A stretch of DNA of 64,000 nt from the NCBI RefSeq assembly GCF_022436485.1, contig NZ_JAKUDO010000001.1:1860001-1924000 (forward strand). Reading direction: 5' to 3'. The translations under genes and the position numbers were made by a program. This document shows, piece after piece, positions 15,951 to 18,517 of the stretch. The stretch is from Agrococcus sp. ARC_14 (lineage in GTDB: Bacteria > Actinomycetota > Actinomycetes > Actinomycetales > Microbacteriaceae). The first letter of the stretch is position 1; each line of letters starts with the position of its first letter. Under the pieces are notes generated by a model that saw only the letters and a program-made list of their open reading frames with translations, searched no databases and was not told the origin of the DNA.

Positions 15951-16595
15951 ATGACCGACGACCTCTTCGCAGAGCCCCAGATCGACACGGCAGCTGTCGC
16001 CCCGAGCGCCACCACGGCCCGCACGGTGCTCGTCGCCGAGGACGAGTCGCTCATCCGCCTCGACATCGTCGAGACGCTGGAGGCTGCCGGGTTCAACGTC
16101 ATCGGCGAGGCCGGCGACGGTGAGCGCGCTGTCGAGCTCGCGACCGAGCTCAAGCCCGACCTCGTGGTCATGGATGTGAAGATGCCCAAGATGGACGGCA
16201 TCACCGCAGCCGAGAAGATCGGCGCCGCGAAGATCGCGCCCGTCGTGCTGCTCACTGCCTTCAGCCAGAAGGAGCTCGTGGAGCGAGCCGGTGAGGCAGG
16301 GGCGCTCGCCTACGTGGTGAAGCCGTTCACGCAGAACGACCTGCTGCCGGCGATCGAGATCGCGCTGGCACGCTGGGATCAGATCCGCGCGCTCGAGTCT
16401 GAGGTCGCCGACTTCGCTGACCGCTTCGAGACCCGCAAGCTCGTCGACCGGGCCAAGGGCCTGCTCAACCAGCGCATGGGCCTGGCAGAGCCTGAGGCGT
16501 TCCGCTGGATCCAGAAGGCCTCGATGGATCGCCGCCTCACGATGGGCGAGGTCGCACAGGCCGTCATCGAGCAGCTGGGCACCGCCAAGAAGTAA
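15951..16595 (+). CDS. pdtaR: ANTAR-domain response regulator (PdtaR-like)
   Basis: A 214-residue response regulator with an N-terminal receiver domain (about 25-140) and a C-terminal ANTAR domain (about 150-208). The receiver has the acidic pair in VLVAEDES, phospho-acceptor Asp75 in VVMDVKMP, Thr in LLTAFS and Lys in YVVKPFT. The ANTAR part (KLVDRAKGLLNQRMGLAEPEAFRWIQ) binds tandem hairpins in nascent RNA to allow antitermination. It matches mycobacterial PdtaR (Rv1626) in layout and in position between pyk and polA. No sensor kinase is adjacent. The first 25 residues are a disordered Ala/Thr extension. Confidence 0.9.
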   Translation: MTDDLFAEPQIDTAAVAPSATTARTVLVAEDESLIRLDIVETLEAAGFNVIGEAGDGERAVELATELKPDLVVMDVKMPKMDGITAAEKIGAAKIAPVVLLTAFSQKELVERAGEAGALAYVVKPFTQNDLLPAIEIALARWDQIRALESEVADFADRFETRKLVDRAKGLLNQRMGLAEPEAFRWIQKASMDRRLTMGEVAQAVIEQLGTAKK

Positions 16596-16600
16596 CCCCC

Positions 16601-16790
16601 CCCTCACGTGAGTGGCGCCCCCCGCACCTGAGTGGCGCCTCCGGCAGGTGAGTGGCGCCTCCCGCACGTGAGTGGCGGCTGCCGCGCCTGAGTGGCGGCT
16701 GCCGCGCCTGAGTGGCGCCTGCCGCGCCTGAGTGGCGGCTGCCGCGCCTGAGTGGCGGCTGCCGCGCCTGAGTGGCGCCTCCCGCACCGA
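16601..16790. repeat. 20-bp tandem repeat array 1
   Basis: Nine consecutive units of exactly 20 bp (16611-16790) plus part of a tenth at 16601-16610, starting 6 bp after the regulator's stop. The units read AGTGGCGCCTCCCGCACCTG in the form closest to array 2. Most internal units instead read AGTGGCGGCTGCCGCGCCTG, which holds a small inverted repeat GCGGC-T-GCCGC. The CACSTG-like joint varies (CACGTG, CACCTG, CAGGTG). The reverse complement of array 2 differs from the consensus at one base. A 20-bp period cannot keep a reading frame, so it is not coding. The 74 bp from 16791 to the gene hold nothing I can name. Confidence 0.95.
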
Positions 16791-16863
16791 CGGCGCATTC
16801 CGAACGGCGGCCCTCCACAGCAACGCCCTGCTCGCCCGCCGCGGTTGCGCGGCATCGACCACC

Positions 16864-17754
16864 ATGCCGCGCATGGATTCCTCCCACGGCTTCACTGTCC
16901 GAGACGGTCTCGACCGCGGCTACACGTCCGCAGAGCTCCGCTCCATGGCGTTCACCTCGCCTGCGCGCGGCACCCGCATCACTGCGGCGATCGGCGATGA
17001 GGCGCAGGCGCTCTTCGAGGCAGTCCGCGTCCTCGCCCTCGACGACCAGTTCTTCTCGCACTCGACGGCCGCGCGTATCCATGGCATGCCGCTTCCGACG
17101 CGGCTCGAGACCGACCGCAAGGTCCACCTCTCCTCGCCGACTGGCCGGGCCCGTATGCAACGACCCGGCGTCGTGGGTCACCGCCTCAAGTCGCAGACGG
17201 TCGAGGTCGACGGGGTGCGGGTCGAGTCGCGTCCGGACGTCTTCGTGCACCTGGCCACCATGCTGACCGTCGAGGAACTGGTCATGGTGGGTGACTGGCT
17301 CGTCTCGCCCAAGCGCCGCGCGCCGCTCACGGTTGAGGATCTGAGGGATGCGCTGCGGCGCTACGACGGGGCACGCGGGCTCCAGCGCGCACGGCATGCG
17401 CTTTCACTCGTGAGGGTCGGCGCTGAGTCTCCGAGGGAGAGCCTCGTGCGGCTGCTCGTGACCGGCTGCCTGCCTGAGCCGACATTGCAGCATGAAGTCT
17501 TCGACCCATCCGGAACCTTTGTCGCACGTCTCGACCTGAGCTGGCCGAGGCTCAAGCTCGGCGTCGAGTACGACGGCGAGCATCACACCGAGCCAGAGCA
17601 GCACGCCCGGGACCAGGCTCGGATCGGGCGACTGCGCGCCCTCGGGTGGCACATCATCACGGTCACCAAGCACGACCTGGAGGATGGCGGCACACGACTG
17701 CTCGCGGCGATCGTGGCCGCGCACCGCCGCTACTCCACGTGGACTGCTGCTTGA
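16864..17754 (+). CDS. DUF559/Vsr-like nuclease-domain protein (AbiEi-antitoxin-like layout)
   Basis: A 296-residue protein of a type common in actinobacteria. The N-terminal two thirds, with SHSTAARIHGMPLP and GRARMQRPGVVGHRL, resemble AbiEi-like proteins. The C-terminus is a DUF559 domain of the restriction-endonuclease-like fold: LDLSWP with Asp224, LGVEYDGEHH with Glu235 and Asp237, then RIGRLRALGWHIITVT. The putative catalytic acids are present. The start is uncertain: ATG at 16864 or 16873, with no Shine-Dalgarno. It stands alone between two inverted 20-bp repeat arrays and interrupts an otherwise conserved core region, which suggests transfer. Function is unknown; defence, repair or repeat-targeted cutting are all open. 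Confidence 0.8.
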   Translation: MPRMDSSHGFTVRDGLDRGYTSAELRSMAFTSPARGTRITAAIGDEAQALFEAVRVLALDDQFFSHSTAARIHGMPLPTRLETDRKVHLSSPTGRARMQRPGVVGHRLKSQTVEVDGVRVESRPDVFVHLATMLTVEELVMVGDWLVSPKRRAPLTVEDLRDALRRYDGARGLQRARHALSLVRVGAESPRESLVRLLVTGCLPEPTLQHEVFDPSGTFVARLDLSWPRLKLGVEYDGEHHTEPEQHARDQARIGRLRALGWHIITVTKHDLEDGGTRLLAAIVAAHRRYSTWTAA

Positions 17755-17790
17755 GTACCTCGTGAGTCGCACCGCTGGCTCGCTTGAGCC

Positions 17791-18060
17791 GCCACCCACT
17801 TGCGGGAGGTGCCAGTCACCTGCGGGAGGCGCCAGTCAGGTGCGGGAGGCGCCAGTCAGGTGCGGGAGGCGCCAGTCAGGTGCGGGAGGCGCCAGTCAGG
17901 TGCGGGAGGCGCCAGTCAGGTGCGGGAGGCGCCAGTCAGGTGCGGGAGGCGCCAGTCAGGTGTGGGAGGCGCCAGTCAGGTGTGGGAGGCGCCAGTCAGG
18001 TGTGGGAGGCGCCAGTCAGGTGCGGGAGGCGCCAGTCAGGTGCGGGAGGCGCCAGTCACC
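17791..18060. repeat. 20-bp tandem repeat array 2
   Basis: Thirteen consecutive 20-bp units at 17801-18060, with a part-unit at 17791-17800. The main unit is TGCGGGAGGCGCCAGTCAGG. Its reverse complement matches the array 1 consensus at 19 of 20 positions, so the arrays lie as an inverted pair around the DUF559 gene. Three neighbouring units (17961-18020) share TGTGGG instead of TGCGGG, and the two end units have ACC instead of AGG. From 17755 to 17790 there is only a small GGCTC-GCTT-GAGCC hairpin. The array ends 10 bp before the thioesterase stop. Confidence 0.96.
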
Positions 18061-18070
18061 GGCGCGCGCG

Positions 18071-18517
18071 TCAGCGCGACTTGATGAAGTTCGTGATGCG
18101 CAGCGTCGAGGCGCGGCGGCCCTCGTCGTCGGTGCAGACGATCTCGTGCACGGTCATGGACCTCCCGAGGTGCACCGCCTTGCACTCTGCCGTCACCCAT
18201 CCGCTCTGGATCGAGCGCGTGTGCGTGGCGTTGATGTCGGTGCCGACGGCATACCGGCCCTCGCCCGCGTGGATGTTCGCGCTCACGGAGCCGAGCGTCT
18301 CGGCGATCACGCAATAGGCGCCGCCGTGCACGTAGCCGACCGGCTGCAGGTTGCCGTCCGCGGGCATGCGCGCGATCGAGTGCTCGGCAGAGAGCTTGAG
18401 GAACTCGATGCCCATCCGCTCGGCGAGCTGGCCGCCGATCCGACCCTCGCGCCGCTCCATCAACGCCCTCGTCGCCTCGTCGGGGGCGGGGATGTCGGAC
18501 TCGGTTGGCAGGGTCAT
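18071..18517 (-). CDS. Hotdog-fold thioesterase (PaaI-like)
   Basis: A 148-residue protein of the acyl-CoA thioesterase hotdog family. It shows YVHGGAYCVIAETLGSVSAN, with the HGG turn and the downstream acid of the PaaI/YbgC-like active site, followed by the central beta strands (GTDINATHTRSIQSGWVTAECKA, given here only as the region about 85-110). It probably hydrolyses acyl-CoA or aryl-CoA esters in the cytosol; the substrate cannot be read from sequence. The ATG at 18517 follows GGAG. It is divergent from polA, whose -10 box lies 49 bp away. Confidence 0.85.
   Translation of the reverse strand: MTLPTESDIPAPDEATRALMERREGRIGGQLAERMGIEFLKLSAEHSIARMPADGNLQPVGYVHGGAYCVIAETLGSVSANIHAGEGRYAVGTDINATHTRSIQSGWVTAECKAVHLGRSMTVHEIVCTDDEGRRASTLRITNFIKSR

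Follow-up and report, generated by a model that had tools for sequence, protein, structure and literature searches.

Inverted repeat arrays around a DUF559-type gene of Agrococcus and a candidate palindrome-endonuclease system of Actinobacteria

Introduction

What links a gene coding for a nuclease-like protein with the two inverted arrays of a 20-bp repeat that enclose it? The question is raised by a locus of Agrococcus sp. ARC_14 (genome G000) located in the window analysed here, a stretch of 64 kb. We report the composition of this locus, its fate in the genus, the sequences that enclose related genes in other Actinobacteria and the distribution of these sequences in the genomes. Genomes, contigs and loci are designated by G, C and L numbers where they have to be told apart.

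Results

The window locus and its protein

An earlier note on this DNA had described two inverted arrays with a 20-bp period around one gene, and TRF recovered both of them in opposite orientation, with 9.4 copies of period 20 and a match of 89% for array 1, and 12.9 copies of period 20 and a match of 97% for array 2. The units are carried by opposite strands and the two arrays face each other (Table 1). Of the 23 matches to a degenerate pattern of the unit in the 64-kb window, 22 lay within the two arrays; in the shuffled window the mean number of matches was 2.35 and the highest 7. The array-gene block is located where a pdtaR-type regulator and a hotdog thioesterase converge. The search of positions 16300-18300 against Rfam gave no match with E up to 1. 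A known defence system at the locus was considered and rejected, PADLOC giving weak matches only (E 0.008 and 0.011).

Table 1 Features of the window locus (window positions)
Feature	Position	Strand	Remarks
pdtaR-type response regulator (Response_reg + ANTAR)	15951..16595	+	Pfam; convergent neighbour
Array 1	16601..16788	+	about 9 tandem 20-bp units, consensus TGAGTGGCGCCTCCCGCACC, directed at the gene
DUF559/MTES_1575-type gene	16864..17754	+	296 aa, between the two arrays
Array 2	17801..18058	-	about 13 tandem 20-bp units of the array 1 type, consensus TGACTGGCGCCTCCCGCACC, directed at the gene
Hotdog-fold thioesterase	18071..18517	-	convergent neighbour

The window protein scored 25 bits against PF18741 and 19.5 bits against PF04480 (DUF559), below the curated Pfam cut-offs of 38.2 and 20.6, respectively. 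Many of its homologs carry PF18741/PF04480 domains, and these homologs together with the predicted model support its probable assignment to the DUF559/MTES_1575 family. The structure model, with a pLDDT of 94.7, matched the AbiEi antitoxin (winged-helix and antitoxin fold) over residues 6-184 and the homing endonuclease I-Bth0305I and Vsr over residues 189-292, I-Bth0305I being the best nuclease match. The putative catalytic residues E192, D224, H241 and D250 were invariant in 50 aligned sequences. The nuclease-like C-terminal domain proposed in the earlier note was thus recovered; it is predicted to have a fold of the Vsr/EDxHD superfamily with conserved catalytic residues, and the protein would presumably cleave DNA. 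We found no DUF1814 (AbiEii) toxin partner beside the window gene, the neighbours at this locus being the two genes of Table 1. There was no sign of an HUH Y1 transposase of IS200/IS605 descent, since Pfam showed only PF18741/PF04480 and the structure only AbiEi and Vsr/I-Bth0305I. PF04480 matches were present in 83 of the 118 sampled genomes of the class.

The locus in the genus

The gene was found at 63-87% identity in 15 of the 23 other genomes of the genus, and TRF detected arrays on both sides at 12 of those 15 orthologous loci. Degenerate units were present at the orthologous loci L061 and L062, and at L057 of G014 (2479-2856) about two units are followed by what we read as an insertion sequence up to the end of the contig. 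The ortholog of G005 (L067, 1501-2016 and upstream) is split, with an in-frame TGA and two overlapping matches; its flanking arrays and four gene-less arrays of their type persist despite the split gene.

Three types of unit occur in the genus: GG-CG, GG-CC and GG-TC. At all 13 loci where both arrays could be read, the window locus among them, the two flanks of the gene were of one type. The earlier note had suggested a self-contained cassette. This did not hold, as arrays of the same 20-mer family were present in the window's own genome at no fewer than nine further places, where no such gene was found. All nine gene-less places consist of a plus and a minus array, that is, of an inverted pair, the ninth with a diverged minus array. 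The smaller contig C3 of this genome (147 kb; L045, L046) holds two of these gene-less inverted array pairs.

The type of these dispersed arrays follows that of the gene flanks: GGCGCC-type flanks go with GGCGCC-type arrays and GGTCAC species with GGTCAC arrays in 26 of the 27 arrays listed from four genomes. Gene-less arrays were of the GG-CG type in G000 (9/9) and G011 (8/9, the remaining one being of the other subtype), and of the GGTCAC type in G005 (4/4) and, among the matches listed, in G001 (5/5); the sole array of G010 was mixed. These counts concern clusters of at least two units and omit G018, G020 and G013; the single units dropped (four in G011, three in G005 and at least eight in G001) include other types, as chance expects from the control columns. 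The sequence type of the dispersed copies thus differs between species of one genus. The earlier note had held that repeats found mostly without a nearby DUF559 gene would reveal an accidental association. Formally, this is what was found; yet in each species the copies without a gene follow the type of its gene, and therefore the association of array and gene is not accidental.

Paralogs of the window gene

A protein search of the same genome revealed three further related genes, the nearest paralogs, each located between two copies of its own, different palindrome (the right-hand copy at L004 being recognised by eye only). The four repeats that enclose the window gene and these paralogs are all different. 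The palindromes of two paralogs had 9 and 7 gene-less copies elsewhere in the genome, the weakest of which (E 0.29) were confirmed by eye, and that of L004 had none in this genome beyond the flanks of its gene. Two of the nine gene-less L002-type palindromes, 1.6 kb apart on contig C2 (L318, 122900-125100), bracket two genes that we take to be ArsR-like and SRPBCC-like; a palindrome pair alone therefore does not mark this gene family. The PF04480 search of the genome gave five matches, at least three of them frames other than the four enclosed genes, and one of the further frames (L311) exhibited only a weak direct flank match of 19.5.

Matching flanks around related genes of other genera

The left and right flanks matched each other with a score of at least 16 at 50 of 68 loci, compared to 8 of 408 control windows. 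The 68 loci are those with enough flank among 72 (L086-L157), the controls are windows of identical layout drawn from this set, and no motif was assumed. The link between repeats and gene suspected in the earlier note is thus real and recurrent. A first, simpler flank test gave scores of at least 16 at 69 of 123 usable loci. When the strongest PF04480 loci were drawn class-wide, 11 of 28 had matching flanks, four of them scoring only 16-19.5, versus 2.5% of mismatched pairs. The mismatched-pair nulls of the earlier flank tests admit related pairs and have a heavy tail, and the test relied on is that with windows of the same loci. Flanks did not match at 18 of the 68 loci of the latter test and at 17 of the 28 loci of the class-wide draw. 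Double flanking by palindromes is general in Actinobacteria, not universal.

The palindromes are mostly 42-74 bp long with arms of about 20 bp, and in 22 palindromes checked GTAG/CTAC was never found at most one base from an end. We first considered that DUF559 genes might generally be accompanied by 20-bp arrays, and dropped this idea because TRF, run on L078-L157, found inverted 20-bp arrays only in Agrococcus loci; the other loci have single palindromes. The window array looks like a multiplied form of the palindrome arm seen around many related genes. At L068 of G029 (1260-2670), a relative of another family, units of 31-bp period with a GGCCACTTTTGGTAAGTCGA core lie beside the gene, corresponding to three helical turns and not two. 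A contig of Williamsia (L109, flagged for unverified contamination) and one of Kitasatospora (L121) carry a similar gene with nearly the same palindrome, through either transfer or contamination.

Palindromes and their own genomes

Fifteen joined palindromes from 13 genomes were searched in 16 genomes, with at most 32 candidates scored per genome. Among the matches listed, each palindrome was found only in its genome of origin, with one exception: the palindrome of the G015 gene also occurred in G003, at nine places or more. Many G015-type palindromes occur in G003 (L178, L074, L195-L197), though the two genes found in this genome have other palindromes; a gene cognate to the G015 type was not found in its assembly, which is 78% complete. 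In the same way, nine palindromes from Rhodococcus, Mycobacterium, Mycolicibacterium, Rathayibacter, Curtobacterium, Williamsia (taken from L109, a different Williamsia from the genome searched), a Nocardioidaceae MAG, a Microbacteriaceae MAG and actinobacterium LLX17 were compared with ten genomes, and the matches listed were all on the diagonal. Most of these genomes contained several dispersed copies; among the matches listed, G162 had one copy and G160 two, and the genome of the window had none.

Over 47 loci, arm similarity was correlated with protein identity (Mantel r 0.645), and this held for the loci outside the pdtaR clade (r 0.414) as well as for those within it (r 0.701); in each of the three tests, none of 5000 permutations reached the observed value. 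The 47 arms were hand-picked, and five of the 52 tree proteins (L068, L072, L160, L176 and L177), which have no one clear arm, were omitted. Shared descent partly accounts for this correlation; the agreement of the two flanks and that of distant copies are not readily given by descent alone.

Presence and absence of palindromes

G015 contains many near-identical gene-less copies of one palindrome. One of these sites is uninterrupted in G003, with a clean 58-bp difference in surrounding DNA that is about 90% identical. In total, 13 sites of G015 were queried in G003, of which one was a clean empty site, one was occupied in both genomes, two had other DNA and nine were one-sided or unread. No target-site duplication was recognised at the one clean site. 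One intergenic place (L184 versus L230) has its own palindrome in G015 and a palindrome of a different family in G003, as if intergenic gaps of this kind were shared landing places. Compared with the relatives G019 and G011, the dispersed sites of the window's genome lacked the palindrome in the relative wherever readable, the intergenic DNA being too diverged for clean borders; the query comprised 14 of 25 prepared sites (4204 of 7500 bases), and 12 site-relative pairs, from 7 sites, were aligned.

The pdtaR-thioesterase gap was searched in ten relatives. The earlier note had proposed a comparison of these intervals for empty sites, and the gap of G012 (Agrococcus-like) indeed has neither gene nor palindrome. 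A related gene lies in the gap of G008, G017, G021 and G023. The gap contains a gene-less copy of the palindrome of its other gene in G002, a gene-less palindrome of another sequence in G009 and a short hairpin only in G003; for G015 and G024, neither gene nor palindrome was recognised within the 520 bases read.

Discussion

A possible working of the system

The reading that we favour, to which we give a probability of about 0.6, is that of an endonuclease specific to its palindrome and responsible for the maintenance or spread of the repeats, REP/RAYT-like in its working and made of unrelated parts. The window gene and its arrays would be one locus of a palindrome-endonuclease system present in many Actinobacteria. 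Its protein would combine an AbiEi-antitoxin-like DNA-binding half with a Vsr/homing-endonuclease-like nuclease half, whose putative active site is conserved, and would recognise a private palindrome of two arms of about 20-23 bp. This fits the double flanking, the likeness of the two flanks, the dispersal of the palindromes and the match of the dispersed copies to the local gene type. At the window locus the arms would have been multiplied into tandem arrays, with one 20-bp unit per half-site; the unit fits an AbiEi-type half-site. The gene-less copies dispersed through the same genome would be further sites of this kind. The protein may bind the arms and its nuclease may act there or close by; aided by repair or replication of the host, this activity might make the palindromes spread or stay alike, as is thought for RAYTs and REPs; the one precise case of presence and absence is consistent with such mobilisation.

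Alternative readings

The alternative that survives best, which we nevertheless regard as unlikely, is an AbiEi-like autoregulator with a nuclease tail, for which the flanking palindromes would serve as operators and the dispersed copies as decoys or as the sites of a small regulon. The N-terminal half of the model is similar to AbiEi. According to the available text of PMC7319586, AbiEi and Rv2827c repress their own promoters by binding 23-bp inverted repeats that occur in pairs with a spacing of 3 or 13 bp, and this geometry is close to that of the palindromes described here. A palindrome is, however, present also downstream of the gene, where an operator is unneeded, and the change in sequence type of the dispersed copies between congeneric species would be fast for a regulon. 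The setting of the gene-less sites also argues against operators: at the 12 of 25 own-genome sites with both neighbours readable, by a rough GC3 call of orientation, the neighbours were convergent at eight, in the same direction at three and divergent at one. Autoregulation through the flanking palindromes may well coexist with a palindrome-specific endonuclease.

Rather improbable, in our view, is a selfish gene of the homing type, in which cleavage of a palindrome by the nuclease would let the gene itself, rather than the repeats, be copied into it, with a palindrome left on either side. The best nuclease match is a homing endonuclease, the gene lies between two copies wherever flanks match, and many genomes have several paralogs, all of which speaks for such a gene. 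Yet at the pdtaR site the gene seems to be of long standing and to have been inherited vertically within the genus, the genomes searched hold more copies without the gene than with it, and the near-identical copies of G015 are repeats without a gene.

We consider it slightly less probable still that the palindromes are stable hairpins ending transcription between convergent genes and that the gene is merely located there. Their palindromic nature and frequent position between convergent genes, as well as the gene-less palindromes in the pdtaR-thioesterase gap of two relatives, would agree with terminators, but an ordinary terminator has no need of a long sequence that is shared by both sides of a gene, unrelated from one gene to the next and in keeping with the gene type of the species. 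Chance or hitch-hiking of slippage-prone GC-rich minisatellites is very improbable, for although the window arrays alone resemble one, the pattern recurs far above controls around paralogs with unrelated repeats and in other families; this reading is already contradicted by the shuffle and flank control tests.

Comparison with known systems

The favoured palindrome-specific endonuclease brings to mind REP/REPIN-RAYT systems (REPtrons), whose extragenic palindromes, as described in the accessible parts of PMC3116915 and PMC3733652, are likewise dispersed, form inverted pairs separated by a spacer and now and then tandem clusters, and fall into families tied to the genes that they flank. The comparison made in the earlier note was the right lead, as here too the cognate palindromes both flank the gene and disperse in its genome; the observation in that note is right, yet understates what is present. 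The enzymes differ: the RAYT (TnpA-REP) is an HUH Y1 transposase, whereas the nuclease described here is Vsr/PD-(D/E)XK-like and joined to an AbiEi-like half. Unlike REPs, the palindromes, at the lengths given above, lack the GTAG tag, and their hosts are Actinobacteria; the available text of PMC3733652 contains no word starting with 'actino' or 'mycobacter'. Having neither an HUH Y1 enzyme nor a GTAG tag, the system is not filed under REP/RAYT.

In contrast to the type IV antitoxins AbiEi and Rv2827c, the window protein is fused to a nuclease and has no DUF1814 toxin partner beside its gene, and its sites are dispersed in the genome and present on both sides of the gene. I-Bth0305I is an intron-encoded enzyme. 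The window protein differs from it and from the Vsr mismatch endonuclease by its AbiEi-like half and by the location of its gene between palindromes, its own palindrome being the probable target. The domain family of its C-terminal half is shared with the MTES_1575 REase (PF18741) and DUF559 (PF04480), and the available text of PMC3710099 describes MTES_1575 as an REase of the Vsr type that forms part of a HEPN fusion protein. Judged by titles and starts of abstracts, the open literature showed no link of DUF559, MTES_1575 or Vsr with palindromic repeats, and we recognised no paper making the nuclease-palindrome link in the open REP/RAYT and dispersed-repeat literature; an earlier description of the DUF559-palindrome link may exist.

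Significance

A wider proposal, which we put forward tentatively and at somewhat less than even odds, is that a second class of bacterial palindrome-mobilising enzymes evolved independently in the form of the AbiEi-DUF559 proteins, in which an antitoxin DNA-binding fold was captured by a nuclease of the homing-endonuclease type. Many species-specific extragenic palindromes in Actinobacteria would owe their origin and their uniformity to these proteins, and the tandem multiplication of half-sites, as at the window locus, would be one outcome of this activity. If the palindrome-endonuclease reading is true, dispersed palindromes across a bacterial class would gain a cognate enzyme and a testable mechanism, and the REP/RAYT design would have arisen again from unrelated parts. 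Many members of DUF559, a domain of unknown function, would then act as palindrome-specific nucleases with naturally diverged specificities that could be read from the flanks of the genes.
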